The notes under the pieces: generated by a model
Database searches by the model: none
What the model was told of the DNA's origin: nothing
The model's input: only the letters and a program-made list of their open reading frames with translations
Assembly: GCA_903826205.1 (NCBI GenBank)
Contig: CAIKDP010000433.1
Location: 1-52,738, forward strand
DNA: 52,738 nucleotides
DNA from: Akkermansiaceae bacterium
GTDB taxonomy: Bacteria > Verrucomicrobiota > Verrucomicrobiia > Verrucomicrobiales > Akkermansiaceae
Reading direction: 5' to 3'
Program-made: the position numbers and the translations under genes
Shown here: piece by piece, positions 2,882-46,426 of the stretch
Numbering within the stretch: position 1 is the stretch's first letter
Layout: every line of letters starts with the position of its first letter

Positions 2882-2926
2882 GCGCATTCATGGGGAATAA
2901 GCCACCAGCCTCTGCCTCCAACACAC

Positions 2927-4256: not shown

Positions 4257-4369
4257 GGTGAAAGGCGGGGGAACGGTTAATGGTGTGAGCGTTGTCAGTT
4301 GTCAGTTGGTAGTTATTAGTCCCATGGGTCCCATCAGCCCCATGGGTCTCATTCTTCCTATGGTCATCT
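4257..4369. repeat. intergenic 9-bp-unit low-complexity repeat
   Basis: The gap between nadC and birA holds a GTCAGTT-type stutter followed by about four 9-bp units of the form GTCCCATNN (4319-4358). The same unit recurs far away at 23399-23479 and 31832-31860, so it is a genome-wide linker element rather than anything specific to these genes. Confidence 0.6.
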
Positions 4370-5218: not shown

Positions 5219-5235
5219 GGTCGTTGGTGAAAATT

Positions 5236-9600: not shown

Positions 9601-11203
9601 CGGTGCCACGGAAAACAGCGCGAAGTGTGGCAAACTGTCTATCAACTTTGATGGCACCGGCGACGCCGGCGTTGAAGGCTGAGGTCATCCCCATGACGGC
9701 CTGCACCGGGATCATCCAGCGGGTATAGGTGGCGGCATTGCGCAGTAGCGAGGAGGTGTGAAAATTGAGCGCGTGCCCTCCGGCAGTGGTGGCAGCGGCA
9801 AAGCGGGCGGCATCACGGGTGGCGGCAACCTCCGCACCCAGGCGCTTGCCTCGCGCCGTATCCGCGGTGGCGACGTTGCCTGCGCCACGGGCGCGGGCTT
9901 CCACACCGGCATATTGGTTGGAGCGGTTGCCGTATTCTGCCTGACGGGCGAGGTGACCTTTTTCCGCGGCCGCCTGCTTGGCTTTGGTGTTGTGAGTCGC
10001 GGCCCGCTCTTGGCGCTCGGTCGCGTTGATGGCGGCGATGCGCTTGTCGGAGTTGGCCTTGATGTCCTGCATCTCGCGGTTGAAGGCGGCGGCGCGGTCC
10101 GTCGCGGCCTGGGCCTCAGCCGCCTTGCGGGCGGCAGATTGGTGGGTTGCCAAAGACGCCATGGCACGCGCCTGCTCGACATCGACCTGCACCGCATGGC
10201 CCTCCATGTTGAGGGCGCGGCGCATGGCCTTGTCGGAGCCGGGAGAATCACCCCGGCCTTGCCGCCACGCATCCATGCGCTGGAACTTGGCCTGACTGTC
10301 GGTGAAGATTTTTTTGCGCTCCGCATAGATGCGGTTGAGTTCGGACTCCCGGCGGGTGAGATCGGCGATTTGGTTGGCGCGGATAATATCCTCGGTGTTG
10401 GCCTTTTGCCAGCGGTCCACGCGCTCCTCTTCCTGGCGCAGCGCGTTGTCGTAACGGTTGCGGCCGCGCGCGGCAATGGCCTTGGTCTCTTTGGACTCCG
10501 ACACCCCATCGAGACGCGCCAAGCGGGCGGCGAGACGGTCGCTTTGGGACTCGCCCTTGGTGAATACACCGCTTCCGGTTAGACCATTGCTGGCGCCGGT
10601 TTGCAGCAACGCGTCAACCCGGCGCTTTTGTTCGGTTAGAGCAAGGCGCTGGCCATCCCTGTCTCCTGAGCCGCTGGCCTTAGAGTAGGCTTGGCCGAGC
10701 TGCTTGTTGACGCCGCGCAAGCCATCCTCCAAGTCCCTGACGGTGCGGACATCCTTGGTGGCCTCAGAGATCAGTGAGGGCGAGCCCGTGACCATGTCCA
10801 GCTTGTATTTCGATGCGCGTTGCAGACCGCTGCCAAGCTGTTCGATCTGTGATAGATGGCGGGCTGTTGGGTTGCCGTTTTTGCCGTAAGTGGTGGTGAG
10901 GGTTTCCGATAGCAGTCCCGGCGTGCGGCGCGGCGGTGTGGAAGCATTGCCAGAGGTGGCGGGCAGGCCATTGGAGCCAAGAATAGGGGAGGGCATGTTG
11001 GCAAACGCCCCCTGCACGATCTTGCGCATGGCACCGGCCTGGGCTTGGAAGCCCTTGAGATCGATGCGCACCGGGATGCGCAGGCCGCGCTTGTCGAGAT
11101 ACTTCTGGAACTCATCGAGCTTCTGCTTGTCCCGGCGCAGTTCCTTGGATAGGTCCGATTTATAGGACGACTCCATTACCACACTGATCGTTCGCGCTGC
11201 CAT
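6647..11203 (-). CDS. phage tail tape measure protein, TP901 core type
   Basis: A 1518-residue protein that sets tail length and is ejected with the DNA in long-tailed phages. The first ~500 residues are charged and coiled-coil rich. A TP901-type core follows (around residues 540-720: GRSADEAMDAAIRWSRLG, LSAIYATYRLN, SNRYNVTNKDLLEGIVRVAG, ATGRPGQEVGNALK). Hydrophobic stretches flank it near residue 500. The rest is long alpha-helical coiled coil with few hydrophobic breaks. It follows the frameshifted tail assembly chaperone by ~50 bp, the canonical order in siphophages. No distal-tail or baseplate genes follow: the next genes to the left are host genes. The element is therefore truncated or rearranged here. 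Confidence 0.92.
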   Translation of the reverse strand: MAARTISVVMESSYKSDLSKELRRDKQKLDEFQKYLDKRGLRIPVRIDLKGFQAQAGAMRKIVQGAFANMPSPILGSNGLPATSGNASTPPRRTPGLLSETLTTTYGKNGNPTARHLSQIEQLGSGLQRASKYKLDMVTGSPSLISEATKDVRTVRDLEDGLRGVNKQLGQAYSKASGSGDRDGQRLALTEQKRRVDALLQTGASNGLTGSGVFTKGESQSDRLAARLARLDGVSESKETKAIAARGRNRYDNALRQEEERVDRWQKANTEDIIRANQIADLTRRESELNRIYAERKKIFTDSQAKFQRMDAWRQGRGDSPGSDKAMRRALNMEGHAVQVDVEQARAMASLATHQSAARKAAEAQAATDRAAAFNREMQDIKANSDKRIAAINATERQERAATHNTKAKQAAAEKGHLARQAEYGNRSNQYAGVEARARGAGNVATADTARGKRLGAEVAATRDAARFAAATTAGGHALNFHTSSLLRNAATYTRWMIPVQAVMGMTSAFNAGVAGAIKVDRQFATLRAVFRGTDAEAQRLKVGTLELAAAQGRSADEAMDAAIRWSRLGMTRIQVLQATKVSLMAANVAEMTAAEASEKLSAIYATYRLNVGDLPVVLARLNAISNRYNVTNKDLLEGIVRVAGVAKEAGLELRDLEGMIGAVTGATGRPGQEVGNALKFVVTRLAAPETMKGLKEGFNIDLSGPNGDLKSMSQIFRELSAIYPTLNNAQKQYFLKLTAGSRQAARFALVLDQYRQSQILAAEAGFDTSSAFRENDKILASLQSRVESLSASWTKLFTAMGDAGAFDLLSSLTSGMGDTINSWSRFLAHMETGVGADKGFMQRFANAMNKRVGANFGNPYGIVKDMAVDAFHGEFMGKKNDPAKSDYSSEVERITANVNMLRERMGGLSRASNVFESMNVAIREGAIDRKTMVRDFESGAHLLINLENGSNRYADAVSRFYKLLEAGDTTGLQKLMIELQGAFQGSESSTKQQFDKAIAPAVETLRDKLAEFEKQRRQLIATPDDGTDAGKRKKAEEIEKIQAAAKAAQGEIEQLTQAQEKFNKAAYGAKPVSAINRYLDHLVGSTGDNEEERVKAQAAAFGEKLKDLSPDADNDPVGRTFQRRRNAEEIGRRWLLETQRKTNLEAATRKGPAARMIEYAKSRMAAGTITEAQGRHEIGIWQKVIDQMDEANLMIQTRLILEDKRLAKARDELAVAEQIAALTRAQTDASKAAADSSIAWRFGETDSDKNANQALTAIQRAKEGLAKAGGAWFNEPLLGENPSRRAGFAGQVLQDEATARKGLETLQTRQYEIEAARKQVAFDTVKAMREQTDEANKRLMLASREDQLRVAAMQSTLSRSGRISAGQFYGLSQESREAVVNYLPNEAPGRLNPAKEARYKALNELDSEQTRLVSAITDIRLGLEGLGAAIKTDSRAGGPLDITPSAPGKSVQEAALTRDTAPVANVNIGNVALNVQLAGQVEKILSGYVDRKLAADLSAMEARLSRPATPNAQGVAE

Positions 11204-11256
11204 GCAGCGGGTGTTTCACAGTAGGGGGACTTGTCAAGCAGGTGTCTTCCGTCTTC

Positions 11257-11579
11257 TCAAATCATCCCATTGAAGAATGCGTCGTGGGCCGGTGAACTGG
11301 GAGCCGGCTTGGCCTTCTTCTCGGCCGCCTCGTGCTGGACCTTATCCAGCATGGCCTTGCGCATGGTGCGTTCGCGGTAGTGGGCGAGCATGATGGCCCG
11401 GTCCATGGCGGGTGCATTGAAGAACGCGGTGGGTGTCAGGTGCCAGAGGATGGCGGTTTCCATGGCGAGGTAGTGGCGGTCCTCGCCATCGAGCTGGCGG
11501 ATTATTTCCGCTTCGCTGCCTGTGGGTTTGGTTTTCGAGAAGGCTCGGAGCTTGGGGAAGGCGGCGAGCCGCCGCTCGT
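11257..11579 (-). CDS. tail assembly chaperone T extension (reached by -1 frameshift)
   Basis: This frame has no good independent start. It becomes an extension of the upstream gene if ribosomes slip back one base on the seven-T run at 11580-11586. The fused reading continues as FYERRLAAFPKLRAFSKTK, then EIIRQLDGEDRHYLAMETAILWHL, and ends in SPAHDAFFNGMI, giving a 294-residue G-T product. A Met within it (11463) could act as a start, but the in-frame sequence upstream of it is protein-like, which favours frameshifting. In lambda-like phages the G-T fusion recruits the tape measure during tail assembly, and the next gene here is the tape measure. Confidence 0.8.
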
Positions 11580-12140
11580 AAAAAAATCGGCGGGGTCCCC
11601 CTGGGCATAGGTCATGTTCCAGATTTCCCCGGCGAGGAACTTGACCAGGTGGGTGGGCAGGGTGTCCATGATCGACTGCACCTTCGAGCTGTCATCGGCT
11701 CCGGGAGTTTCCGAATGCAGATCGGCCACGCCCTTGAGGACAACGAAAGCAGCCTGACGGTCCTGAAGCGGACGCAGCGCGGCGATGTATTTCGGGTCCT
11801 CATAGTTGTAGCCGGCCGGGACACGGCGGGGTGGTTGGCCGGGGCGCTCGGTAGGCTCCTCCATGATCACTTCCGGCGGCACGACGGCATCGAGGATCGC
11901 TTCCGCCGCCTGGCGCTCGCTCATGGTTAGAGAGCGGATGGAAAAGTCCATGACCGGCGCACCCGCCCGGATTTCAAGTTTCACCTTGGCTGGCTCCCCG
12001 CGCTGCGACTCCGGTAGGGCGAGTTGATCGGTGGACCATTCACGCCGCTCGGATAAGATGTCCTCCGGAGCGGCGAGACGGACAGTCTTGGTGGCTTGCG
12101 CGAATTCGCGCATGGAGGCGAAGAGGGATTGTGAAGTCAT
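11502..12140 (-). CDS. tail assembly chaperone G
   Basis: A 212-residue protein from ATG 12140; starts further upstream would run into the divergent promoter region. Its middle (AKVKLEIRAGAPVMDFSIRSLTMSERQAAEAIL) resembles tail assembly chaperones that coat the tape measure. The C-terminal ~25 residues after ADFF are low complexity (TSGGSPPSPSSEPSRKPNP), as expected for the non-slipped product. It is placed right before the tape measure with a slippery heptamer 26 codons before its stop. The call rests on context and the frameshift more than on sequence similarity. Confidence 0.75.
   Translation of the reverse strand: MTSQSLFASMREFAQATKTVRLAAPEDILSERREWSTDQLALPESQRGEPAKVKLEIRAGAPVMDFSIRSLTMSERQAAEAILDAVVPPEVIMEEPTERPGQPPRRVPAGYNYEDPKYIAALRPLQDRQAAFVVLKGVADLHSETPGADDSSKVQSIMDTLPTHLVKFLAGEIWNMTYAQGDPADFFTSGGSPPSPSSEPSRKPNPQAAKRK
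11580..11586 (-). promoter_or_regulatory. -1 ribosomal frameshift slippery site
   Basis: Seven consecutive T on the minus strand, read in the zero frame as GAT TTT TTT ACG. This is the pattern X XXY YYZ with X = Y = Z = T. Slipping back one base opens the G-T frame, which stays open for 107 codons to 11257. A GC-rich stretch follows within 10 bases (CGAGCGGCGGCTCGCCGCC) and can fold as a stimulatory hairpin. Confidence 0.8.
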
Positions 12141-12219
12141 GGTGAAATTGTCATGGTAAAACGTTGCGCCAGTGTTGTGCCAGCTTGCACAATAATTGTC
12201 AATGGTGTAGTTTTCCCGC
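12141..12219. promoter_or_regulatory. divergent promoter region with operator-like dyad
   Basis: The region lies between the minus-strand tail chaperone and the plus-strand 180-residue gene. A perfect dyad TTGTGC-CAGCTT-GCACAA occupies 12175-12192, and a second palindrome ACAATAATTGT overlaps its right end (12189-12199). A weak sigma70-like pair for the plus strand is TTGCAC (12185) and TAGTTT (12208) with 17 bp between, overlapping the dyads. This would be a natural place for a repressor, but none is identified. Confidence 0.4.
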
Positions 12220-12762
12220 ATGGCGATTTTGAATCCGATCACGAATGCGGGGGTGCTGGCTATTGACGGGAACGTGGAACCGGAGGCGCGTCTGCAAGGC
12301 CTGCTGCGTTTGTGGCTGGGGCATTACTTTGCGGGCATCGCGTTCACGACGCGGGCCGAGGGCGGGACCACGACAGCCAAGACCTTCATCGCGTGCGATT
12401 TTCTATGGCAGGATGACGTAATGCCCCTGAACGCGCCGAAGCCGGTCTTGCATGTGGTGATGACCGCGGATGGCACGGAACGCATGAACCTCAAACCCGG
12501 CGTGATCGGGCACCGCGACCGCTGGTTGCTAGAGGTGACGATCAAGCTGCCAGGCACCTTGGACAGCCCGGAATACATGGCACGGCGCTTGGCAGGGCAA
12601 GTGCTTTGGTTGTTGTCATCGAGCGAGCGCGAAGCCTTGTCAGTCTGCGGCGTGGAGGAATTGAAAGTGGAAGCGGCGCCCACCCTGATTCCCGTGGTCA
12701 ACGGCTGGCACCGCCGCATGATGATGGCGAGCTGCGCCACGCGCCGCGAGCAGAGTGTCTAG
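12220..12762 (+). CDS. probable phage neck/tail-terminator-like protein
   Basis: A 180-residue protein on the plus strand, opposite to its phage neighbours. It has no signal peptide, membrane segment or recognisable motif. Its size, its mixed alpha/beta look and its position immediately before the tail chaperone would fit a tail terminator or neck protein, but this is positional inference. It could also be a cargo gene. It ends 80 bp before the start of the cassette array. Divergent transcription from the chaperone is unusual for a virion gene. Confidence 0.4.
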   Translation: MAILNPITNAGVLAIDGNVEPEARLQGLLRLWLGHYFAGIAFTTRAEGGTTTAKTFIACDFLWQDDVMPLNAPKPVLHVVMTADGTERMNLKPGVIGHRDRWLLEVTIKLPGTLDSPEYMARRLAGQVLWLLSSSEREALSVCGVEELKVEAAPTLIPVVNGWHRRMMMASCATRREQSV

Positions 12763-12841
12763 CGGGTGGCGCACGCTTCCAGCGTGCATCCTGCCGCATC
12801 CTGCGGCAGGTTCTCCCAGCCATCGGAACGCACAGGCCACC
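12763..12841. repeat. dispersed hairpin repeat bounding array A (left copy)
   Basis: Contains the dyads GCACGCTTCCAGCGTGC and CTGCCGCATCCTGCGGCAG. The same double-dyad family occurs at 18241-18355, 39935-39980, 45713-45795 and 47485-47592. Copies therefore sit at or near all ends of the two cassette arrays. Confidence 0.65.
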
Positions 12842-13048
12842 TCAGAATGAGCTTGAGCCCATGCTCTCCCCTCCACCAGTCTGCCTCCAACGATCATTCA
12901 TCTTCCTCCACGTCTCCTCCATTTCTTCTATCTCCTTTTCCTTCGGGCTTAGTTGAAGATCTTCGGGAAGATCTCGATAACACCCAGGGCATTTCCCAAA
13001 GCTCCTGGCGACGATCTTCTCACCACAGTGCTGACAACGGAGATCCAT
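12842..13048 (-). CDS. small zinc-ribbon protein (array A cassette)
   Basis: A 68-residue protein that opens with CQHCGEKI and then CPGCYRDL, two CxxC knuckles of a zinc ribbon, followed by a charged helical tail. The function is unknown. It resembles in style the zinc-ribbon cassette protein at 47002-47463. It starts directly after an attC-like core (TGACAAC at 13048-13054), as expected for a promoterless gene cassette, and is the last cassette of array A before the dispersed hairpin. Confidence 0.6.
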   Translation of the reverse strand: MDLRCQHCGEKIVARSFGKCPGCYRDLPEDLQLSPKEKEIEEMEETWRKMNDRWRQTGGGESMGSSSF

Positions 13049-13094
13049 GACAACGAATTAGTCCTGCCGCCGGGTCAGATTGGAGTGGTTGAAG
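13048..13094 (-). repeat. attC-like site A9 (degenerate)
   Basis: Bounded on the plus strand by TGACAAC and GTTGAAG, with the CCTGCCGCC core word shared with sites A6, A6b and B4. It overlaps the start codon of the downstream cassette gene. Confidence 0.4.
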
Positions 13095-13169
13095 CTGTCG
13101 AGCTTCTGCCGTTTGGCAGAGACGACCTCGACCGCCCCGTTGCTCTGACGCGATCCGGCAGACGGAAGA

Positions 13170-13619
13170 TCATTTCTGAGTGGGGGCGGGTGGGGGGGGG
13201 ATAGGGGGGTGTTCTCTAGCAGTCTTATCCATGGCTTTTCTGACCTCTAAAGTCATTGGAAGCCGCGTGCTTTCGAGGTAGGTTTCCAACTTTTTCATAG
13301 TTGATTTCGCCTCTGGATGACTGTAGAAGTCAGCGAGAATTTTCAGCTCATCCGCGGTAAATGTCTTGAGTAAGAGATCCTTGTAACTCTTTATGAGTGC
13401 CTTTGAGTCCAGATTCTTGGGCATCGATGATAGAAATCTCTCCCTGTCGGAATCGGGGACGTCTTTAGCTATAACCGCGGTCAAGTCCGCGAAATCCTCG
13501 GTCGGCGGCTTCGCTTTCAAGTATCGATCAGCCTGGAGCGATCGGTTCTCCTGCGTGTCTTCCATAGCGGAACAGATTGATGCTAGGCTGATTGCCAACG
13601 ATATAAGAGCGGTTTTCAT
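13170..13619 (-). CDS. secreted DUF2059-like protein (array A cassette)
   Basis: A 149-residue protein with a clear signal peptide (MKTALISLAISLASICSAME). The body contains LLLKTFTADELKILADFYSHPEAKS, which matches the pattern of DUF2059 proteins (a helix ending before FYxSPxGK). The C-terminus is proline rich (PPIPPPPAP). It is probably periplasmic, and its function is unknown. It lies between attC-like sites A8 and A9. Base composition is lower in GC than the phage genes next to it. Confidence 0.65.
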   Translation of the reverse strand: MKTALISLAISLASICSAMEDTQENRSLQADRYLKAKPPTEDFADLTAVIAKDVPDSDRERFLSSMPKNLDSKALIKSYKDLLLKTFTADELKILADFYSHPEAKSTMKKLETYLESTRLPMTLEVRKAMDKTAREHPPIPPPPAPTQK

Positions 13620-13636
13620 TGTGTGGATTTCTGTAC

Positions 13637-13714
13637 GTCCAACGTTAGAGTGCTCCTACGGGAGCGATTGTATGGAAATTGAAAAGAGATTGAATTGCTC
13701 ATGGCCCGTTAGGA
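13637..13714 (-). repeat. attC-like site A8
   Basis: A 78-bp interval with plus-strand ends GTCCAAC and GTTAGGA. On the minus strand this reads TCCTAAC ... GTTGGAC, a close match to the RYYYAAC / GTTRRRY pair of integron recombination sites. The inner part contains a CTCC-TACG-GGAG hairpin. It sits between the 3' end of one small gene and the start of the next. Confidence 0.6.
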
Positions 13715-14127
13715 GGGACTACTTGTTCGCTTAGTCGATTTTCGTACCAGACCCGCCACTTCTCGGCATCGCAACCGAAGTCCTCTCCGGTGATCGCTAC
13801 AAGTGCGTCATGGCAATGGCCCCAGGTGCACTCGATGGAACCGGATCGCCGTTGGTCCTCCGGAATACGGCGAAGCGAACGGATCAAAAGCGGAATCGAA
13901 GACTCATCCCCGACTGTCTTCAGCATGATGAACCCGTCGTGACTCTCGTTCCAAGCGATCAATTGGTGAATAGCCTCACGAAAATCCTCTTTGGTTGCTT
14001 TGGGGTTCTCGCAGACCTTCCGAAAGTTCTCCCGAGGCCAAATAACAAAGCGGTAGTAGCAGGTGCCCGAGGCGATGACCAACGCCACTAAAGCAATCGA
14101 AATCCAGATACCGTGTCTTCTGTGCAT
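13699..14127 (-). CDS. membrane-anchored HEAT-like protein (array A cassette)
   Basis: A 142-residue protein with one N-terminal membrane anchor (ISIALVALVIASGTCYYRF). A HEAT-like segment follows (SSIPLLIRSLRRIPEDQR). It ends with the recurring block IECTWGHCHDALVAITGEDFGCDAEKWRVWYE, which I recognise as a motif of HEAT-type proteins in planctomycetes and verrucomicrobia. The function is unknown. Its stop lies inside attC-like site A8. Confidence 0.6.
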   Translation of the reverse strand: MHRRHGIWISIALVALVIASGTCYYRFVIWPRENFRKVCENPKATKEDFREAIHQLIAWNESHDGFIMLKTVGDESSIPLLIRSLRRIPEDQRRSGSIECTWGHCHDALVAITGEDFGCDAEKWRVWYENRLSEQVVPPNGP

Positions 14128-14137
14128 TAATTTTGGG

Positions 14138-14198
14138 AGCGAACGTGCGGGCCTGCCATCCGGCTACCGGGGGGCATCCTCCGACGTGGGGGTTGATG
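14138..14198 (-). repeat. attC-like site A7
   Basis: Starts with AGCGAAC and ends with GTTGATG on the plus strand. It shares CCGGCTACCGGGG with site A3 at almost the same spacing. The last codons of the preceding small gene run into it. Confidence 0.55.
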
Positions 14199-14280
14199 GT
14201 TGATCTTTCACGGGAACCTTGTTCGGGTGCTCTCGGAGCATCGTCAAAAGGAAGATCTGCAATATTGATGAAAGTTTCAT
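14164..14280 (-). CDS. 38-residue peptide (array A cassette)
   Basis: A short frame from ATG 14280 with a hydrophobic N-terminus (MKLSSILQIFLLTML) and a tail VKDQPSTPTSEDAPR. That tail is the counterpart of the C-terminus of the 265-residue cassette gene at 16707 (VKDHPPTPRTKILPR), because both stops lie in homologous attC-like sequence. It may be a genuine small protein or the remnant of a deleted cassette gene. Confidence 0.35.
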   Translation of the reverse strand: MKLSSILQIFLLTMLREHPNKVPVKDQPSTPTSEDAPR

Positions 14281-14287
14281 TTGTGAG

Positions 14288-14327
14288 GTGAACTTTGATG
14301 TCCTGCCGCCAGCGGCGAGAGTTCTAA
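14288..14327 (-). repeat. minimal attC-like hairpin A6b
   Basis: A ~40-nt hairpin: outer arms GAACT/AGTTC, inner stem GCCGC-CA-GCGGC. It contains the TTTGATGTCCTGCCGCC word shared with sites A6 and B4. It sits exactly between two small genes, and the stop of the upstream one (14324) lies within it. Confidence 0.5.
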
Positions 14328-14692
14328 AGAAACATTGACACCTTGAACCAGACCAGCGAGTATGTCCAGAATATGTAACCACTTACGAAGAGGGAGATTT
14401 GCGAATAGACCAGGCTCCAAACCTGAGCTGGCGAGGATCGCCGTACCAATGTAACAAACGCTGCCAATCCTAGGCAGGAGATCCCGATAACGACCAATAT
14501 CCACAGGCCGTCATCTGGCCGGGCATCCGTCATGGCTACAGTATCCTTGTGAAATCGCTCAAGCTGATCCGTCATTCCACGCAGCAATGTGCCGAGACAG
14601 TAATCCGCGAGTGCGGTAAGCAACGCGGCAACCCAGATGGCGAGCGTTTGTAGCTTGCCAGATTGGGATGCGCGATCTTTATGCTCTTTCAT
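14324..14692 (-). CDS. small membrane protein (array A cassette)
   Basis: A 122-residue protein with about three predicted membrane segments (residues ~12-32, ~66-86 and ~98-118: LVVIGISCLGLAAFVTLV and SLFVSGYIFWTYSLVWF). The family is unrecognised. Starts further downstream exist, but the first Met lies right after an attC-like site. It is flanked by attC-like sites A6 and A6b. Confidence 0.55.
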   Translation of the reverse strand: MKEHKDRASQSGKLQTLAIWVAALLTALADYCLGTLLRGMTDQLERFHKDTVAMTDARPDDGLWILVVIGISCLGLAAFVTLVRRSSPAQVWSLVYSQISLFVSGYIFWTYSLVWFKVSMFL

Positions 14693-14696
14693 TGGG

Positions 14697-14787
14697 GGGG
14701 GCTACCCATGTCCTGCCGCCGGGTCATGGCAGGGCGGTTGGGGTTGATGTTGTGGGATTGGCGGTCACTCGGTGCGATGTCTTGATT
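14697..14787 (-). repeat. attC-like site A6
   Basis: The left half matches site B4 (ATGTCCTGCCGCCGGGTCATGG then GGCGGTTGGGGTTGATG). The right half matches site B3 (CGGTCACTCGGTGCGATG). Sharing halves with two sites 36 kb away is strong support for a family of related recombination sites. Confidence 0.6.
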
Positions 14788-15618
14788 TTACGGGGTCATT
14801 TTGGTGTTCAACCAACTCTTATCCGGTAGTAGAAACTCGTAAGTCTCCACGCTCTTAGAAATTCGGCAACGAGCTACGAACTGTCTCATGCCAATGTAGA
14901 TATATCCATCGTCGACCTCAATCGAATTTGGATATAGGCCTCTCCAGTTCGCGTTTGGTATCAGCATCAGAATCTCCCTCTTGAGGTTTACTCGCAGAAG
15001 CGAGTCCGAAGTTACGATTGCATATTCGCCAGTGGCAATCCGTGCGATGGCCTCCGCCGAGCTCGGGAGAGGAAGGAACTCCTTGACCATCCAGATTCCA
15101 TTCTCCTTCACGATCTCAATCATTGACCCATGCGAGGTGCTAAGATGAGCCAATCCTTCTACGGCGAAAATTCTGTCTCCTTCACATAGAAATGCGTTGA
15201 TCTGGTGCTCTGATAACTTCTTCTTCTTCTTGCCGTCCATGCTAAACCAATATATTGCGGAGCCGAATTCTCCCTCATTGTATGCGGCAATCCATCCTCC
15301 TTCGACTTTTAGGCACTGAGACGCTGTCGCCTTACGATCCTGAAGCTGAGCTGTCGTATCGAAATTCGGAAGTAATCGCTCCGTGGACTCACCATCCCGT
15401 AGATGACGTGCACTCAGCTTGCCGTCCGATCGAGCCACCACCCAATGATCGTTGCTAAAGTTGGCCCGTTGGAAGAAATTATAGTAGTCCTTGTTAGTCT
15501 TATCGGGAGGCTTCACCACGGTCCACTTTTTGATGTCGGTGTCGAAATCTCGACCGAAGATCGAAGCTGGGAAGAGAGAGACAAAGACTAGGAGTGTCAG
15601 CGGAATGAATCTTTTCAT
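14788..15618 (-). CDS. secreted beta-propeller-like protein (array A cassette)
   Basis: A 276-residue protein from ATG 15618, chosen because a clean signal peptide follows (MKRFIPLTLLVFVSLFPASIFG). Repeating short blocks of the type 'x-V-x-x-GWIAAYNEG / IYWFSMDGK / RIFAVEGLA / EYAIVTSDSLLRVNL / YIYIGMRQFVARC' suggest a beta-propeller. No family is recognised. It lies between attC-like sites A5 and A6. Confidence 0.55.
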   Translation of the reverse strand: MKRFIPLTLLVFVSLFPASIFGRDFDTDIKKWTVVKPPDKTNKDYYNFFQRANFSNDHWVVARSDGKLSARHLRDGESTERLLPNFDTTAQLQDRKATASQCLKVEGGWIAAYNEGEFGSAIYWFSMDGKKKKKLSEHQINAFLCEGDRIFAVEGLAHLSTSHGSMIEIVKENGIWMVKEFLPLPSSAEAIARIATGEYAIVTSDSLLRVNLKREILMLIPNANWRGLYPNSIEVDDGYIYIGMRQFVARCRISKSVETYEFLLPDKSWLNTKMTP

Positions 15619-15619
15619 T

Positions 15620-15720
15620 GTAATCGAGCGTTTTTGGTGGCGGCCGCGTGATTGAGGTGATTTAGCGGGGTGGTTGAGGAGCTTCAGGCGGATTGCCATC
15701 CACTCCTTGTCGGGTTTAGT
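15620..15720 (-). repeat. attC-like site A5 (degenerate)
   Basis: The position between two cassette genes and the GGGTTTAG arm near 15712 fit an attC site, but the start-proximal core (CGAGCG) is poor and I see no strong stem. Confidence 0.3.
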
Positions 15721-16294
15721 GACTTCTCTTTCGTGGCCCATACTTGATGAAAAAGTATCCTTTGATAGCAATATAGATGACAATCAGGCCTAGAGCAAAT
15801 TGGAGACCCAATAGAAGGATCGTGGAAGTAAAAGATCTACCTCGGAGCGCCTCAAAAACTGAATTCCATGAGCGCTCGGCAGGAACCTCAATAATTCTCG
15901 GGAGCATACTCGAACGATGGATAAGCTCACGGTGAGAGTATATTTGGAGTGATTCTAATCCACTAGGCGGATTCGAACGAAGATACGGAGTGGCAATCTG
16001 GATAGCAGAATCGTAGTGCTCGATGTCCCAGTTTGGCAGTTCTACGTAGCACAAATATTTACCCGTCTGCGCATCGCCGCGCCACTCCGAACGATTGACC
16101 AAAGGAACGGAAATGACTTGGGGCTGCGTCACCATTTCGGTCGTGAGCTTAACATCTTGGAAGAAATCCTGAACAACGAATGGTGCGGCTATAACCATGC
16201 CGATTGCAGCGATGCAAAAGCTCGCGTGCAGCAGGATTCCGGCGCTGATCAACCTGAATACTAAGCGGTTGCCTATTCGAGTGAGATAGTTCAT
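15716..16294 (-). CDS. two-TM membrane protein, DUF3592-like topology (array A cassette)
   Basis: A 192-residue protein: an N-terminal membrane segment (residues ~14-40), an extracytoplasmic domain of ~110 residues beginning around the first VPLVNRSEW, then a second membrane segment (LLLGLQFALGLIVIYIAI) and a basic tail. This topology and the 'RGDAQTGKYLCYVEL' strand recall DUF3592 proteins. The function is unknown. It starts 11 bp after the attC-like core GCCGAAC of site A4. Confidence 0.55.
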   Translation of the reverse strand: MNYLTRIGNRLVFRLISAGILLHASFCIAAIGMVIAAPFVVQDFFQDVKLTTEMVTQPQVISVPLVNRSEWRGDAQTGKYLCYVELPNWDIEHYDSAIQIATPYLRSNPPSGLESLQIYSHRELIHRSSMLPRIIEVPAERSWNSVFEALRGRSFTSTILLLGLQFALGLIVIYIAIKGYFFIKYGPRKRSH

Positions 16295-16304
16295 TTTGCT
16301 TTCT

Positions 16305-16355
16305 GCCGAACGTCTCTACTTTGCCTCAGGGCGGCTGAGATGATCGGGGTTGGAT
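16305..16355 (-). repeat. attC-like site A4
   Basis: Plus-strand ends are GCCGAAC and GTTGGAT. The core GTTCGGC (minus strand) is the same as in sites A1 and B3. The upstream gene stops inside the site at 16316. Confidence 0.5.
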
Positions 16356-16675
16356 GTTGTGGGGCTGTTGCCTGTCGGCAGAATTGGCTTCTGCTTGTTA
16401 TTTATCCTGGCCGCAAAAATCTCCCTCGCCTTTTCATATGTTGGCTCACCGACCGTCGATACCAACTCAGATACCTCATCAAGTACCTCTCGTGTGCGCT
16501 GGTCGCCGGTCTTGGAGGCGGCTACCAAATCGACTGATAATCTTCGAATATGTTGGATGTGGTATTCAGATGCCCCGATCTTCATTCCAAATTGTGCTCC
16601 TACATTGCAGCCCAGCCATACCCCAATTATGACCGAAAGTGGCCATGCGATAAGGATGATGGTTTTCTTCTTCAT
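16316..16675 (-). CDS. small membrane-anchored protein (array A cassette)
   Basis: A 119-residue protein with one N-terminal membrane segment (TIILIAWPLSVIIGVWLGCNVGAQFG), a helical middle and a Pro/Ser/Asn-rich tail. The family is unrecognised. It is bounded by attC-like sites A3 and A4. Confidence 0.5.
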   Translation of the reverse strand: MKKKTIILIAWPLSVIIGVWLGCNVGAQFGMKIGASEYHIQHIRRLSVDLVAASKTGDQRTREVLDEVSELVSTVGEPTYEKAREIFAARINNKQKPILPTGNSPTTSNPDHLSRPEAK

Positions 16676-16681
16676 GTATTT

Positions 16682-16741
16682 GCAGAACGTTAGAGGCTGC
16701 CACCGGCTACCGGGGTAGGATCTTCGTACGCGGGGTTGGGG
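16682..16741 (-). repeat. attC-like site A3
   Basis: A 60-bp interval with plus-strand ends GCAGAAC and GTTGGGG. The inner word CCGGCTACCGGGG is shared with site A7. The stop codon of the upstream gene (16707) lies inside. Confidence 0.5.
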
Positions 16742-17504
16742 GGTGATCTTTCACGGGCGGCTCTACGGAGGGATGGGTAGCCGGTTGGACAGCCCTCTTT
16801 TGTTCGGAATCTTCGTCGGCTATGTCGATTATTCGTGCGGCTCGCGACAACAAGAATTCGGGATGCACATCGGTTGGCTTCAACGCAACTCTAAGGGTCG
16901 CACTACTTGGAGTTCCGGTTGACGGTAATGCCGCTCTTGACTTCTCGAAATTCATGATCCGTGCGCCTATCTCCAAACTCCACATATTTCCCGCTTTGTC
17001 TCCAAACAGAATAGATGTATTTCGATTAGATTCAATATTTCGGATCAGATTACCCATAACTTCTTTCGTCAAGCCGAAGTTTACTGACACCAAGTGAAAT
17101 TTTGGGTCGGAGAAACTCTTCCATTCGACTGGAGTCTCGTCACAAACATTTTTGGAAATTAGCTCGGTAGTGCCAACCCGGATCTTGAAATGATCGTCGG
17201 TTGGTAGCTTCGTTCCATGCCATAGAAGAGATGTTCGAATTGCGACAATCTCAGGGGCATCAGTTCTTGGTCCAAAAAAGACCACGAAGTATGGCCTAAA
17301 CCCTGCTTGCTCAAGAAATGGCTTATCGCAACTAGCTGCCACAAGCATTGGAGCAAAATCAACATTACGATAGACTTTCTCCAACATTCTAATCGCCGAA
17401 TTCCAATCGGTTGGCGCTCGGGAATGGCCTCGACTACAATTCAAAGCGGTTAGTGCCAAGAACAGGCAACAAGACTTAGCCCACATTGACTGAACTGGAT
17501 TCAT
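16707..17504 (-). CDS. secreted protein of unknown function (array A cassette)
   Basis: A 265-residue protein with a signal sequence (MWAKSCCLFLALTALNCSRG, a likely lipoprotein with Cys at the end). The body has no motif I recognise. The C-terminal ~20 residues (VKDHPPTPRTKILPR) are encoded by attC-like DNA and have a counterpart in the 38-residue frame at 14164. Its start is 13 bp after the attC-like core TCCGAAC. The gene is AT-richer than the phage genes. Confidence 0.6.
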   Translation of the reverse strand: MNPVQSMWAKSCCLFLALTALNCSRGHSRAPTDWNSAIRMLEKVYRNVDFAPMLVAASCDKPFLEQAGFRPYFVVFFGPRTDAPEIVAIRTSLLWHGTKLPTDDHFKIRVGTTELISKNVCDETPVEWKSFSDPKFHLVSVNFGLTKEVMGNLIRNIESNRNTSILFGDKAGNMWSLEIGARIMNFEKSRAALPSTGTPSSATLRVALKPTDVHPEFLLSRAARIIDIADEDSEQKRAVQPATHPSVEPPVKDHPPTPRTKILPR

Positions 17505-17516
17505 ATAATGCTATTT

Positions 17517-17643
17517 TCCGAACGTTTAATGTGCTGGCACCGGCGGATATTGAAGGGAAGTAGTCATGGGAAATCAAGAGCTAAACGCCGGTTGCCCAGC
17601 CATGATTGTTCTTCTGATGGGCTTCGTCATCGACATGCTAGAG
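17517..17643 (-). repeat. attC-like site A2
   Basis: A 127-bp interval between two cassette genes. The internal stem is convincing: GCTGGCACCGGCG (17533-17545) pairs with CGCCGGTTGCCCAGC (17586-17600) except for two unpaired bases on one arm. Such extrahelical bases are the hallmark of attC hairpins. The core next to the downstream gene is TCCGAAC, and the other arm overlaps the preceding stop (GCTAGAG). The inner 70 bp match plus-strand site B+2 at 46327-46419. Confidence 0.7.
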
Positions 17644-18048
17644 TGTGCCATTATTTGCGCGCCGCTTGATCTCGGCATCCGGATCCTGGGGATCAATTGG
17701 ACCTTCGATATCAACGCACAAGTCAGAAGTTTCTGTTTCTTTGATTCTTGAATTTGATTTTTCGGTGATGGCATTTGCTGGCATGGGACGAAATGTCTTT
17801 ATGGCAATTATTAGGGTTATCGCCGCGGCTACTGCTGCAAATACACCCCCCAATAAATATGGTGGGGATGGCTCCCCATAACGATTCCATGCTTGAAAAG
17901 CCGTAACTATACTCGAAAGGACCCACCCACAACAAAATGCCTCGATGGTAATAATGAGTGCGCAGACGACACGAAGAGCGACAGACTGAAATCGAAATAC
18001 CCCGATGAGAGGTATAATTACGACAGATATTTGAACGAGGAATTTCAT
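17638..18048 (-). CDS. multi-TM membrane protein (first cassette of array A)
   Basis: A 136-residue protein with about three membrane segments (residues ~4-22, ~26-50 and ~65-86) and a hydrophilic acidic C-terminus. The family is unrecognised. It is the cassette closest to the shared leader, starting 10 bp after the core GCCGAAC. Confidence 0.55.
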   Translation of the reverse strand: MKFLVQISVVIIPLIGVFRFQSVALRVVCALIITIEAFCCGWVLSSIVTAFQAWNRYGEPSPPYLLGGVFAAVAAAITLIIAIKTFRPMPANAITEKSNSRIKETETSDLCVDIEGPIDPQDPDAEIKRRANNGTL

Positions 18049-18057
18049 GAGTTTTCT

Positions 18058-18149
18058 GCCGAACGTGGTTTTATGCCTCTGTGTGTTTGATCAGCCCAAA
18101 CACACAGAGGCTGTTACAGGTGTAACAGCCTCCCGGAAGGGCGAACTTC
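18058..18149 (-). repeat. leader hairpins and first core of array A
   Basis: The core GCCGAAC (18058-18064) is followed by a perfect 15-bp stem with a 7-nt loop (18075-18111; arms GCCTCTGTGTGTTTG and its complement). A second 7-bp stem with 4-nt loop lies at 18111-18128 (CTGTTAC/GTAACAG). On the minus strand this precedes the first cassette. It may be an attC variant, a terminator of read-through, or an attI-like site. Confidence 0.55.
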
Positions 18150-18256
18150 GTCCACCGACGCCCGGAGTGTCGTTTCACGGCCCTTGGTCTATCAGCCAAG
18201 ATGCTGACTGGCGAGGGAATTGCAAAAAGATTTTTTTAGGGGTGGGCACCCTTCCA
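18150..18256. repeat. inverted repeat copy 1 (shared array leader)
   Basis: About 105 bp that reappear as the reverse complement at 45775-45880 with high identity by eye (over ~85 bp I count about seven differences). The blocks GACACTCCGG-type, TTTCACGGCCC, TGGTCTATCA, CCAAGATGCTG and CTGGCGAGGGAAT are shared. Each copy points into a cassette array. Together they bound the 27.5-kb block that carries the phage head, lysis and fibre genes plus the exported operon. Confidence 0.75.
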
Positions 18257-18363
18257 GAGGTTCCTATGTCTCCTGTCCCCTGTCTCCTGTCTTGAAGAGA
18301 AAGACCTCCCGCAGGATGCGGGAGGAGGCACCCTGGAAGGGTGCGCCACCCAAAGTCACCCCA
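18257..18363. repeat. dispersed hairpin repeat near array A (right copy)
   Basis: Contains the dyad CTCCCGCAGGATGCGGGAG and the CCCTGGAAGGGTGCGCCACCC word, plus a short TCTCCTGTC stutter. It belongs to the same family as copies at 12763, 39935, 45713 and 47485. Confidence 0.65.
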
Positions 18364-19002
18364 TCAGAATTCGCGGGCCAGGCGGGAGACGTGGTGGGTC
18401 AGGTCACGCGAGAAGCGCACGGAGAAGTGAACCTCCCATGCGGCAGCGACGGCATCCAGGAGCGGTTCTGAGGCGGATTCCTCGCCGGTGAGGTATCGCT
18501 GGATGACACGGCGCAGACGGGTGTAGTTGGGTGGATTGTGGCGCGAGTAGTAGGCTCGCATGACAATGGTGGCCAGGGCGTTCTCACCTTGCTTTGGATC
18601 ATCGAGGATTTTCCGGTCTTCGGCGGTGATGCGCTTGCCGCCTTCTTGACCCGCGACACCGGAGCGGATCCACTCCACGATGTCCTTGTGGCTGACTTGC
18701 TGGGTTGGCGGGCGGGACTCCTTGGGATCGAGCGAGCCGGAGGATTCGGGTGGCGATGAGACGGAGAGCATGGTGCCGCCACCTAACAATAGGTCCAGGC
18801 TGATGCGGTCGACGGTTTTATCCACTTTGTGACTCCACGAATCGGCGTTGTGTTCGGTCGGCCTGGCCCCCATGAGCACGCGACGGGCGATGGCCGTGGC
18901 AGTGCGGTGGTAGGATTCGCTCTTGGCAGCGTGGAACTCGACCGGCGCAGAAAGCTTCTTCTCCAGTGAAGAAATATCCTTGAAGAGTTGGTCAAAAGTC
19001 AT
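18364..19002 (-). CDS. phage-cluster protein of unknown function
   Basis: A 212-residue soluble protein, helical at both ends, with a Ser/Pro-rich linker around residues 80-105. Its place among connector and neck genes suggests a virion or assembly role, but no family is recognised. It is the last head-side gene before array A interrupts the cluster. Confidence 0.5.
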   Translation of the reverse strand: MTFDQLFKDISSLEKKLSAPVEFHAAKSESYHRTATAIARRVLMGARPTEHNADSWSHKVDKTVDRISLDLLLGGGTMLSVSSPPESSGSLDPKESRPPTQQVSHKDIVEWIRSGVAGQEGGKRITAEDRKILDDPKQGENALATIVMRAYYSRHNPPNYTRLRRVIQRYLTGEESASEPLLDAVAAAWEVHFSVRFSRDLTHHVSRLAREF

Positions 19003-19078
19003 GAGAGTGGTGGGTGATGATGGAGAGTCGCTTGCGTCATTCTTTACTAATGACTCATGACGAGTGACTCATGACCCC
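19003..19078. repeat. low-complexity linker (ATGACTC stutter)
   Basis: An AT-richer linker built from repeats of ACTAATGACTCATGACGAG-like words. Similar linkers recur at 19540-19615, 32180-32220 and 39800-39845 between other minus-strand genes. Confidence 0.5.
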
Positions 19079-19510
19079 TCACGCGATCAGCGTGACGAGC
19101 ACCGTTTTCGTGATAGGCACCCCATTGCAGCGCACATCCCATGACGAGGAGAGCGAGGAACTGCCGACTTTCCTCACATAGATCTTGCCGCTGATCTCGA
19201 AGCTCAGGTCGGGCTTGGAGTCAAGATCGACCGCACCGGGAAAATCCAGGATCACATCGCCGAGGTGGACTTCGGCGTGTGCGACAAAACCGGTGGTCTG
19301 GATATTGACATAGTGGACGAAGGCACTGATGACCTCGCTTTGCTCGGTGATAACCGACCCGGCCGCGGTGGTTTCCAGACCGGCAATATACCCCGCTGGA
19401 CGCACCGTGTTGCGCCAGCGCAGGGTGACGGGTTCGGCATTGAGTCCGGAAGCAATGAGTCGCTTGGCTAAACGGGTGAGCTTGGGGGCAATGTTGCGGG
19501 GGAGGCGCAT
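19079..19510 (-). CDS. probable head-tail joining (head closure-like) protein
   Basis: A 143-residue protein: a short basic N-terminal helix, then mostly beta strands (EPVTLRWRNTV, YIAGLETTAAGSV, EVHLGDVILDFPG, ISGKIYVRKVGS). The size and beta-rich make-up with a middle 'GDVILDF' block fit head-closure proteins of siphophages. This is fold-level inference only. Confidence 0.4.
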   Translation of the reverse strand: MRLPRNIAPKLTRLAKRLIASGLNAEPVTLRWRNTVRPAGYIAGLETTAAGSVITEQSEVISAFVHYVNIQTTGFVAHAEVHLGDVILDFPGAVDLDSKPDLSFEISGKIYVRKVGSSSLSSSWDVRCNGVPITKTVLVTLIA

Positions 19511-19615
19511 GAGGGATGAAGAGTTAGAGGTTATCAGTTATCAGTTATTGGGAAGCGGAAGAAGCGACCATTCTTGTTCTTTACCAATGACCAATGACTA
19601 TTGACCATTGACCCA
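19511..19615. repeat. low-complexity linker (ATCAGTT and ATGACCA stutters)
   Basis: Two runs of imperfect short repeats (TTATCAG units, then ATGACCAATGACTATTGACC-like units) without coding potential. Confidence 0.5.
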
Positions 19616-20962
19616 TCATCCAACCACCATACACGGCTCATCAGGGCGTTGGGCTGGAATGACATAGTCTTGTAGAAGGATACCGGGGGAATCCGGGGCT
19701 GGCTCGGCGATGGCTTGGGAGGCCGACGAAAGGTCATCGGCTTCCTCGTCGGGCGTGGTGGCATCGTCGATGCCCGAGATGGCGGGTGGTTCGGTTTCCT
19801 CGGTGAGGAGTTGGGTGAGCTTGAGGAGGCGGCGGCAGGCTTCGCGCTGGACGACGGTGGGCTGGTAATCCTTGCCCCAAAGGTTTTCCGGGATGCAGGC
19901 TTCGCGCATGCGCAAGACCACATCCGGGCGGTATTGCGCCGGGCGGATGGTGAGCGGAGTGGTGAGCCACACGAGTTCCTCGCCTGTGAACATGCCATCG
20001 ATCAGGGTCTTGTCGCCGGATGCGTAATAGAGGCGGTGGGCTTCGGTTAGGTGGGAGATGGTGCCGATAGCCACGCGTCGGAGTTCCCCGGCTTCCGCCT
20101 CATCGCTGCCAAGTTCTGCGGCGGCGGCGCGGTAGGTGGTGGAGAGAACAGTGAGAGCCTTTTCCGTGGCGGTGATGGCGTCGCCGATTTTTTGGATCTC
20201 GGCGGACTGCTCCTTGGATATCTCACTGCCCTTTTGGATGCTTTCCAGTCGGAAGCGGTGGGCATTGAGCGTGCTCTCATGGCTGGCCATGTTCAGCTCC
20301 ATGACAATGAGCGTGCGCGCGCTCTCGCGGGTGTTCTTGTCTTCGAGGAGTTGGCGCAGTTCGAGAATGCGGTTGGCGACGTAAAGCCGATCCGATGCGG
20401 AGCGGATGGATTGGAAACGGAAGGGCGTGAGGATGGCGGCGATGTGTTCCTCATCAAGTGCCTGGTGGATGGAAAACTGCGGCAGACTGTCAAGCGGCTT
20501 GACGGGATCTTCCGATGGCGTTGATAGAGGATCGGAGATCGTGGATCGTGGATCCGGGGAAGAGTCCGCCGCCGACTCGACAGGAGATTTCAATTTTGAG
20601 ATTTGCGATGTCAGCGAAGCTGACCGGCGCGCCTTTTTCCAAAACTCCTTGGCAGCTTTGAGGTCGGACTTGAGATGGGACTCAGGCACGCCGAGGGTGG
20701 CGGATAGATCCGACCACGACCACGCCTTGAGATCATCCGGGGATGCGCCATCGCCCCACAGCGGGGCGAGCTTGTAAAGCCGGCGGATGACGAGCCACGG
20801 ACGCCCCTGCCCGGCGAGCGCCAGGTGCCATGGGATGACTTCGTGGTCGCGCAGATCAAAAGCTGCGGAGAGTCCCTGCCAATCCTCGATCAGCCACGGC
20901 GGCGCATCCTCCGCCGGGGAGTATTCCAGCGACTTTGGCGGCGGGCGGAAGAGGTCAGTCAT
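19616..20962 (-). CDS. phage-cluster protein of unknown function, coiled coil
   Basis: A 448-residue soluble protein. Residues ~20-110 form a compact globular N-domain (WLIEDWQGLSAAFDLR ... VPESHLKSDLKAAKEFWKKA). A low-complexity Ser/Pro linker follows (~115-155), then a long helical, partly coiled-coil middle with alternating Glu/Lys/Arg (~180-300) and an acidic C-terminus. There is no Walker A or nuclease motif, so it is not a large terminase. A DNA-binding or small-terminase-like role is conceivable from the N-domain but unproven. Confidence 0.5.
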   Translation of the reverse strand: MTDLFRPPPKSLEYSPAEDAPPWLIEDWQGLSAAFDLRDHEVIPWHLALAGQGRPWLVIRRLYKLAPLWGDGASPDDLKAWSWSDLSATLGVPESHLKSDLKAAKEFWKKARRSASLTSQISKLKSPVESAADSSPDPRSTISDPLSTPSEDPVKPLDSLPQFSIHQALDEEHIAAILTPFRFQSIRSASDRLYVANRILELRQLLEDKNTRESARTLIVMELNMASHESTLNAHRFRLESIQKGSEISKEQSAEIQKIGDAITATEKALTVLSTTYRAAAAELGSDEAEAGELRRVAIGTISHLTEAHRLYYASGDKTLIDGMFTGEELVWLTTPLTIRPAQYRPDVVLRMREACIPENLWGKDYQPTVVQREACRRLLKLTQLLTEETEPPAISGIDDATTPDEEADDLSSASQAIAEPAPDSPGILLQDYVIPAQRPDEPCMVVG

Positions 20963-20974
20963 GGCAGAAAGGTA

Positions 20975-21196
20975 TCAGTTAGGGCCGGAAGAATCAGACT
21001 TGTCCGACTCGTCCGACATGTCCGACCGCTTCTTCTTTTCCAGTCTTCTGTCCTGTACCTTCGGCTCGGATCCCCATCTCGGCCGTGCGATGCCCATGCG
21101 ATCCAAAGCGGTGTTGATGGCCAGGCGGGTTTCCCGTGCTTCCAGACACACACGAACCACACGGGTGCCGGTGCGCTTTTGTTGGATGCGGGACAT
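20975..21196 (-). CDS. small basic protein ending in a 9-bp repeat
   Basis: A 73-residue protein from ATG 21196, with a basic N-terminal half (MSRIQQKRTGTRVVRVCLEA). The C-terminus SDMSDESDKSDSSGPN is encoded by the dispersed 9-bp unit (GTCCGACNN), so a linker repeat has become coding sequence. It ends 13 bp before the next gene. The role is unknown. Confidence 0.5.
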   Translation of the reverse strand: MSRIQQKRTGTRVVRVCLEARETRLAINTALDRMGIARPRWGSEPKVQDRRLEKKKRSDMSDESDKSDSSGPN

Positions 21197-21319
21197 GGGG
21201 AGTGAAGCGTTAATTCCCAAGCACTAAATTCTACACGATGAGAAAGACGCGAAGGGAAGGTGAGGCGTGAGCATATTCTTGGGCTTTGTTTCGGATTTGG
21301 AATTTTGGATTTGGTGCTT

Positions 21320-22405
21320 TCAGCAGACTGTCCCATCGAGGTAGGCGCCATCCGGCAGCAGCGTAAGTCCGGATTGGCCGGTGGCTGGATTGGGGTAGCC
21401 GGGAATGGCGAGACGGAATGGATAATCATGGGAGAACGGCGGCGCCTCGTTACAAGTGAGGGCGGGCACCGCCAGCACTCCATGGCCGATGACGGCATAG
21501 ACTCGCCGGAGGTATCGGAAGATGATGACAGGTTCATCGAGCATGCGGTCCTGTGGTAGGGCCAGCAACGGCTCGGGGATGCCGAGCGTTTGGAGCGCCA
21601 GCTCGCCGCGCAGCTTGAGGCCGTGATGGACGGTGGAATTCGGGTTGCCGATGATAGCGATGACGAGATTGCACCATTCGACCTGGGCGCGTGGCAGGGC
21701 AGGGGAGACCTGGGAACCGGCGACGACACGCGGGAAGTAGGCGGAGATGGCCACCTCGTTCTCCGAATCCTCCACCGGGGAAATGTTGACGTAGCGTGTG
21801 CCATCGCCCGTGTCATTGCGGAGTTTGGAGGTCCACGATTCGGCATCCGGGTCATAAGTGAGGCAGGTGATGCGCTGGGTGCCGCATTGCCAATCGACTT
21901 CTCCCAATACGATGGGAGCCATGGATGGCGGCGAGAGAAATCCGATGGATTCCTGCATCCAAGTGGACTTGAGCCGCATGGTGCGGACCATCACCTCGCC
22001 GGATTCATTGGCATCGTCGCCCTCGATGGTGACATAGAAGAAGCGGAAGCACGACCATTGGCCGGTGTGGGCATCCACAAATCGCACCACGAGGATATGG
22101 AATCCGCCGGCGGCAATCCGCGATGGGACGCGGGAATTGCCATCGGCGAATGCGGCATCCGGGAAGCCGATTGAGATTTCATATTCGGCTTCAATGTTAG
22201 GCTCGGCCCCGGTGAAGTTGTGTCCGGACGGCGCGGATTTCTTGCGGGCATCGGATAGAGTGATGCCCGCCTTGGCCAGAAACACAGGGCCGGGCACGCC
22301 GCGGGCGGCACCCGGCCCCGTGAAGGGCATGCCGTCGCGCCACGCAGGATACAGCGCCACCTCCGATTCGTGAATGGTCCATGGAGTAAGGAGCGTTTGA
22401 TGCAT
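21320..22405 (-). CDS. probable phage structural protein
   Basis: A 361-residue beta-rich soluble protein without signal peptide or known motif. It has features of a virion surface or tail protein (many aromatic beta strands such as FHILVVRFVDAHTGQWSCFRFFYVTIEG). It lies between connector-type genes. The specific role cannot be assigned. Confidence 0.5.
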   Translation of the reverse strand: MHQTLLTPWTIHESEVALYPAWRDGMPFTGPGAARGVPGPVFLAKAGITLSDARKKSAPSGHNFTGAEPNIEAEYEISIGFPDAAFADGNSRVPSRIAAGGFHILVVRFVDAHTGQWSCFRFFYVTIEGDDANESGEVMVRTMRLKSTWMQESIGFLSPPSMAPIVLGEVDWQCGTQRITCLTYDPDAESWTSKLRNDTGDGTRYVNISPVEDSENEVAISAYFPRVVAGSQVSPALPRAQVEWCNLVIAIIGNPNSTVHHGLKLRGELALQTLGIPEPLLALPQDRMLDEPVIIFRYLRRVYAVIGHGVLAVPALTCNEAPPFSHDYPFRLAIPGYPNPATGQSGLTLLPDGAYLDGTVC

Positions 22406-22449
22406 GATCTTGGTTTGGATTTTAGTTTTCTGCTTTCCGCTTTCTGTTT

Positions 22450-46419: not shown

Positions 46420-46426
46420 AGACAAT

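Follow-up and report, generated by a model that had tools for sequence, protein, structure and literature searches.

In integrons of the reverse-orientation type, known from Treponema and others, the cassettes lie downstream of the integrase gene, intI. Integrons and clusters of attC sites lacking integron integrases (CALINs) have also been described in phages, among them, in a cryptic prophage of Shewanella, a CALIN that starts with an attI (PMC9892861); an attI-headed array in a cryptic prophage is thus already known. The origins given for CALINs and the phyla that have integrons, Verrucomicrobiota included, have been treated elsewhere (PMC8618304). In the accessible parts of the open-licence literature on integrons, cassettes and prophages of Verrucomicrobia, and on orphan attI sites or attI with CALINs, we found no case matching the one presented here. 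This is array A, a cassette array of 5601 bases on the minus strand, at positions 12763-18363 of a contig (C433) from an Akkermansiaceae bacterium; the whole stretch of 52,738 nucleotides is referred to below as the window. We consider it probable, from the comparisons that follow, that array A is an integron array that carries an attI-like site of its own, lacks an integrase gene and became inserted where the 3' ends of two convergent siphovirus-like prophage genes meet, and that its cassettes are exchanged in trans by a remote integrase; the prophage would be defective and one of many cassette sites.

The genome to which the window belongs (G000) is a draft of 469 contigs, of which C75, C133, C209, C300, C391 and C454 are also cited. 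It was compared with a genome of the same family and another genus (G298, locus L035), one of another family (G032, locus L022), two further genomes (G056 and G018) and L027, a contig of a named Verrucomicrobia metagenome-assembled genome; L040 and L044 denote C454 and C300. Sites of the attC type were sought with two models. R1 was trained solely on four sites flanking the two integron integrases of the window's own genome, on C75 and C391, and R2 on a set that by construction includes G000 sites; R1 E-values for the window refer to a search over 14 sources unless the whole genome is mentioned. A covariance model of the array head, R3, was built from 11 heads picked by DNA similarity, the window head being one of the 11.

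R1 finds seven attC sites in array A with E-values from 3e-10 to 6e-3. All are on the plus strand: 17517-17613 (2.8e-8), 16682-16807 (0.0016), 16305-16396 (5.7e-5), 15623-15714 (0.0056), 14701-14789 (4e-9), 13637-13730 (3.2e-10) and 13048-13131 (0.004 over 13061-13123). The sites at 16682, 15623 and 13048 score 4.9e-8, 2.8e-16 and 7.3e-10 with R2, in whose training set they are included. A further candidate at 14141-14227(+), missed by both models, was recognized by eye and has a 26-base repeat in common with the 16682 site. Over the whole genome R1 gives 20 matches at E<=0.01 on nine contigs. In the search over 14 sources it also gave matches at chance level, with E 0.11 in the far part of C75 (L010) and, among eight relative phage loci, a single match (L022) at E 0.97. 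The next open reading frame (ORF) begins 0-18 bp from attC at all seven sites of array A, the start of ORF 5 being taken at 15621 for this measurement (its ATG is at 15618). In an alignment of 28 attC sites, which was fitted to the model, 15 of 15 stem pairs show two-sided change, a count also reached by 5 of 500 shuffles, and 88.3% of cells are paired, as against 62.8% in shuffles. Six attC stretches were folded as DNA and compared with 200 shuffles each: 16303-16400 (1/200 as good) and 16680-16809 (2/200) fold clearly better, and the other four do not (19, 50, 130 and 111 of 200 as good). The G+C content of the array is 0.505, as against 0.614 and 0.603 in the phage DNA on either side. A CALIN has at least two attC sites and no integron integrase nearby; array A has seven sites by a model trained elsewhere, and matches to the integrase model TIGR02249 were found solely on other contigs. 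It lacks the intI adjoining attI and array that would make a complete integron. Array A is thus confirmed as an array of integron cassettes that lacks an integrase gene.

The ends of the array are exact, since 12760-12762 and 18364-18366 are the stop codons of the flanking genes. The left neighbour, 12220-12762(+), is a phage gene, 35% identical to L035:4238-4846(-) and 24% to L022:10604-11221(-), and is convergent with the right neighbour, phage gene 18364-19002(-), which is 31% identical to L035:3607-4230. In G298 the homologue of the 18364 gene stops with TGA at 4234-4236 and the opposite-strand homologue of the 12220 gene ends at 4238, so that the empty site is 1 bp between two stops; array A thus lies exactly between two convergent genes and breaks neither. 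No attC match was found on this G298 contig, which carries in one run the homologues of 22450, 21320, 19616, 19079, 18364, 11502 and the tape measure gene, and in a second run those of 26597, 32228, 33126, 34532, 35201, 37032 and 38265. Most of these homologues are also present in G032, with gene order mostly kept and both halves in one cluster; the junction corresponding to array A is occupied by an ORF whose weak methyltransferase match stays below threshold, and no attC match was found there. Because the G298 cluster is uninterrupted, with adjoining stops, the comparison supports the reading that array A entered the phage cluster by insertion. The preliminary description had already supposed that the array entered the cluster rather than bordering it, and had called for a relative with an uninterrupted, cassette-free cluster that would give the exact ends; G298 is such a relative, and the G032 cluster is also continuous. 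Of the other relatives, G056, G018 and L027 hold one half only, and an array at this junction was seen in none of them.

The surroundings had been described as neck or connector-type genes on one side and tail chaperone and tape measure on the other, all virion genes running in the same direction. There are indeed phage genes on both sides, with the tape measure identified by profile, and both the tape measure and the 18364 gene are on the minus strand. The immediate left neighbour, however, is the plus-strand gene 12220-12762, inverted in all three genomes (own, G298 and G032), the gene in the chaperone position is 11502-12242, and by comparison with G298 and G032 the tail module is turned round with respect to the head module.

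The array begins at 18054-18187(-) with a structured element that we call the head (122.7 bits with R3). The sequence GTGTAACAGCCTCCCGG has three copies at <=1 mismatch in the genome: one beside intI on C391, one in array A and one where the C454 array starts. Nine of the 73 genomes of the genus have the head by DNA similarity, and 16 of 73 (own included) by R3, which gives 59 matches, the weakest near E 2e-4. Four of these are in the window's own genome (C454, the window, C133 and C391); G073 has 17 matches at 16 places, two of them overlapping on opposite strands, and G061 has 12. At four of the loci examined (C391, L077, L098 and L082) intI, complete or as a remnant, precedes the head, which starts 60-76 bp past the end of the intI alignment. 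The intI of L077 is complete and 83% identical to the C391 integrase; those of L098 and L082 are eroded. In a separate set of 12 head loci inspected before, intI was not found. The head has two predicted hairpins, with two-sided change at 4 of 14 predicted pairs, and its hairpin folds better than shuffles (0/200 as good). Rfam, run on five head loci, returned a tRNA and a single match below threshold, both of them outside the head, and 12700-18400 of the window is without an Rfam match. Around 30 fetched R3 head loci, which cover part of those in G073 and G061, there are 20 attC matches in 14 loci, 19 of 20 on the predicted side (the exception is L095:1870) and 20 of 20 on the predicted strand; L078 and L097 overlap, so one site is counted twice, and four of the 20 are own-genome sites from the R2 training set. 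The head 18054-18187 thus appears attI-like, fitting attI in sequence, position and orientation, and we take it to be the attI of a reverse-type integron.

Two integron integrases above the TIGR02249 cut-off are encoded in the genome, on C75 and C391, and no match was found on the window contig or on C300. In both cases intI and the cassettes run in the same direction and the array is placed after the intI stop. Either integrase, acting in trans, could be responsible for the gain and loss of cassettes at 18054-18187. The attI itself might have arrived as part of a whole integron that later lost intI, or as a segment of attI plus array. In-place loss of intI is plausible because L098 and L082 show an eroded intI beside the head.

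It could be argued that there is no true attI here and that the intergenic gap offered a secondary site at which cassettes went in singly, one after another, again through an integrase acting in trans. Off-target insertion of this kind is among the origins given for CALINs in PMC8618304. We nevertheless regard it as unlikely for array A, since a conserved head common to intI-adjacent loci fits attI better than a random gap would. It is conceivable, though we would put it forward only tentatively and doubt it on balance, that attI itself has multiplied in the genus. Structured copies at up to 16 places per genome, away from intI, would each start an array of their own, prophages included, with one or two integrases serving them all in trans; acquiring such an attI would turn a prophage into a portable docking platform for cassettes.

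The cluster around array A appears to be a siphovirus-like prophage. The tape measure gene, 6647-11203(-), matches phrog_4211 (2.4e-51) and PF10145 (1.6e-25). In a PHROGs scan of 28 window ORFs, array ORFs excluded, only this gene and a repetitive fibre-like ORF, 29527-31443, fell below 0.01, and among the ten ORFs flanking array A the tape measure alone matched PHROGs or Pfam. The other phage genes were consequently named from gene order in the relatives: 11502-12242(-), in the tail-chaperone position and presumably of that role (34% to L035:4806-5462); the putative major-capsid-like gene 33126-34499(-), from alignment with its homologues; and the portal-like gene 38265-39755(-), so called from its place beside the terminase in relatives (39% to L041, 33% to L030). 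The capsid-like protein has no match in PHROGs, Pfam, PDB or phage records, and its single-sequence fold is useless (predicted local distance difference test score 34); the portal-like protein has none in PHROGs, Pfam or phage records. The large terminase gene lies beyond the window end. The final 141 bases of the window recur unchanged at the start of C300, whose gene 733-2487 is 42-43% identical to the G298 and G032 terminases (43% to that of G032), in both of which genomes the terminase-like gene adjoins the portal-like gene. The G032 protein matches phrog_2 at 2e-8, and it is through this homologue that the terminase was recognized; the C300 and G298 proteins have no terminase profile match, and a PDB search with the terminase gave one meaningless match (E 0.31). 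Of the hallmarks of a tailed phage, the tape measure and the large terminase were thus found. The cluster is rare: the tape measure gene was found in 3 of 39 genomes (own included), the 18364 gene in 2 of 73 and the 21320 gene in 4 of 386. Among phage records 51 matched the tape measure, every one at <60% identity and over no more than 80% of the protein, and viral contigs scanned with the tape measure, terminase and capsid-like queries yielded no relatives. The fibre-like gene 29527-31443 is built of 66-base and 249-base tandem repeats, and a 117-base tandem repeat occupies the contig start (window 1-271).

Array A is one of two insertions in this cluster. The second runs from 39756 to the window end at 52738 and continues into C300 to about 53.3 kb, so that ~13.6 kb separate the portal-like gene from the terminase. 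It comprises genes without phage matches (40287-45656, one carrying TSP3 and DUF900 domains), plus-strand cassettes from 45913 and minus-strand cassettes to the window end, the cassette groups being oppositely oriented. R1 places its attC sites at 46328-46420(-), 50415-50507, 50870-50950 and 52343-52438; one at 51437-51525 is weaker (R2 E 0.027). At 45776-45880 there is an inverted copy of the outer portion of the head of array A (86% over 108 bp), which R3 does not score as a head. Cassettes were also found beside phage genes at other loci. On C454 (L040 1594-5680) an array with an attI-like head has six minus-strand ORFs (1635-5543) and six R2 attC matches; it is flanked by a side judged fibre-like and holin-like by eye and by a phage-type integrase (phrog_1, 2.5e-18). 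L027 has the closest tape measure match (84% in the best segment), and at 2198-2856, between the homologue of 11257-11463 and the tape measure start, two attC matches (6e-12 and 2.7e-9) that are outside the R2 training set. G032 (L042 565-2216) has three weaker matches, 9e-6 to 8e-5, on the far side of its terminase and its homologue of 19616; when the whole genome is scored, one of these matches keeps E<=0.01.

Counted with R2, which scored 150 candidates per genome so that the counts are lower bounds, there are at least 30 attC matches in G000, 38 in G056, 30 in G018, 17 in G032 (most at E 1e-5 to 0.01 and thus uncertain) and 2 in G298, scattered over many contigs in the first three. Integrases above the cut-off number two in G000, four in G032, one each in G298 and G056, and none in G018. 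Because attC matches are scattered through these genomes, we infer that the prophage is one landing place for cassettes among many. The idea that cassettes favour phages was considered and dropped, as the matches are spread widely in G000, G056 and G018.

According to the preliminary description, cassettes in such a backbone would either provide a route for their spread or show that the phage is dead and colonised. We favour the defective, colonised prophage over a cassette vector, without either being proven, because the tail module (window 6647-22917) is turned the other way with respect to the head module than it is in G298 and G032, because the inserts add ~19 kb to a ~29-kb module (by arithmetic, from 6647 to about 55.1 kb in all), and because no tyrosine-recombinase (TIGR02249) match was found on C433 or C300, serine integrases and repressors not having been searched for. 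A live temperate phage that packages the arrays as cargo and spreads cassettes between hosts would account for the open phage ORFs and for the attC matches in the related prophage loci L027 and, more weakly, G032, and functional phages carrying integrons are among those published (PMC9892861). The inversion, the insert load and the missing recombinase match speak against it, as do the L027 tape measure gene, only parts of which were found, and the scatter of attC sites over many contigs in three genomes with no phage enrichment seen; we judge it quite unlikely.

Both ends of array A carry a repetitive extragenic palindromic (REP)-like repeat with two hairpins, at 12764-12811(+) and, inverted, at 18304-18351(-). 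In the window this 48-base repeat also occurs at 45747, 47535 and, in part, 39956, at array borders and gene ends, and its first 19 bases have 14 genome copies at <=1 mismatch. Array A could accordingly have moved as a unit bounded by these repeats, like an integron mobilization unit. Units bounded by miniature inverted-repeat transposable elements (MITEs) have been described, and array A has a copy of the REP-like repeat at each end, as array B, another array of the window, has one beside each of its ends. However, copies directly follow ordinary gene stops on C209 and may merely mark convergent gene ends, none was found in C454, and by eye there is no target duplication despite the inverted ends, so that movement as such a unit seems rather improbable. 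That the junctions are an assembly chimera of integron and phage, as a draft of many contigs with repeats at both array ends might suggest, is very hard to credit, since the 48-base repeats are shorter than the 141-base contig overlap, which probably reflects the assembly word length, and cassettes stand beside phage genes also on C454, L027 and, more weakly, G032.

Several observations weigh against the reading of array A as an attI-headed insertion into a defective prophage. The genome is a draft. E-values of the attC and head models are rough, and in the whole-genome search only three of the seven array A sites (13637, 14701 and 17517) keep E<=0.01 with the independent model. The 50-kb contig of G056 holds only the right half of the cluster, after which come an SSB-like gene and the end of the contig, and G018 and L027 have only pieces of the left half, on the tape measure side, which counts against insertion. 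The capsid-like and portal-like genes are conserved and in the expected order, but are named by position only, and the phage ORFs are open and of nearly the same length as those of relatives, as a long-dead prophage need not keep them. Of the 30 fetched head loci, 16 have flanks without attC at E<=0.01. Finally, a search for an intI remnant beside the window head gave nothing convincing (best E 0.28) that would bear out in-place loss of intI.

The cassette ORFs, all on the minus strand, are eight in number, followed by a small ninth at the tail end: ORF 1 (17638-18048, hydrophobic N-terminus), ORF 2 (16707-17504, N-terminus lipoprotein-like by eye), ORF 3 (16316-16675), ORF 4 (15716-16294), ORF 5 (14788-15618, starting at an ATG within the longer ORF 14788-15783), ORF 6 (14324-14692), ORF 7 (13699-14127), ORF 8 (13170-13619) and the ninth, 12842-13048, zinc-ribbon-like by weak matches. 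ORF 8 is DUF2059-like, its Pfam match (7.7e-5, 23.1 bits) being slightly below the cut-off of 23.6. Of ten cassette proteins searched with PADLOC (array A, eight; arrays B and C, two), only the HNH protein at 51610-52335 gave matches, to three families, mREase_IV best (2.7e-6). Hydrophobic N-termini are present in 7 of 9 cassette proteins of array A, 5 of 6 of C454 and 3 of 7 of arrays B and C, as against 2 of 15 usable phage rows, the row of the capsid-like ORF being left out.

The locus indicates that cassette arrays can settle inside prophages. It provides a base-exact case of a cassette array within a phage structural cluster, for which a relative shows the empty site, together with an attI-like structured element for which other genomes can now be searched. 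It also becomes testable whether arrays spread through multiplication of attI rather than movement of whole integrons, and whether phages are carriers of such platforms.

Among described systems, the MITE-bounded integron mobilization units resemble array A in having an integron part without intI between inverted repeats, as far as their published descriptions go; the repeats here differ in being 48-base, two-hairpin REP-like sequences that are also found at ordinary gene ends. The reverse-orientation integrons are matched by the C391 and C75 arrays, which follow the intI stop in the same direction, and differ from array A, which has no intI. As a CALIN, array A has its seven attC sites and no intI match in the window, and differs in its attI-like head, of which the section on CALINs in PMC8618304 makes no mention but which the Shewanella CALIN has. 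The closest parallel is Shewanella prophage M16-3 (PMC9892861), likewise cryptic, with an integrase-less array that starts with its own attI and is flanked by tail, scaffold and terminase genes. According to the description of that prophage, it also contains a complete integron, whereas there is no intI match on C433 or C300. Compared with M16-3, the present case is marked by a base-exact empty site in one relative, two insertions in one cluster, a head found in 16 of 73 genomes of the genus, and a host of another phylum.

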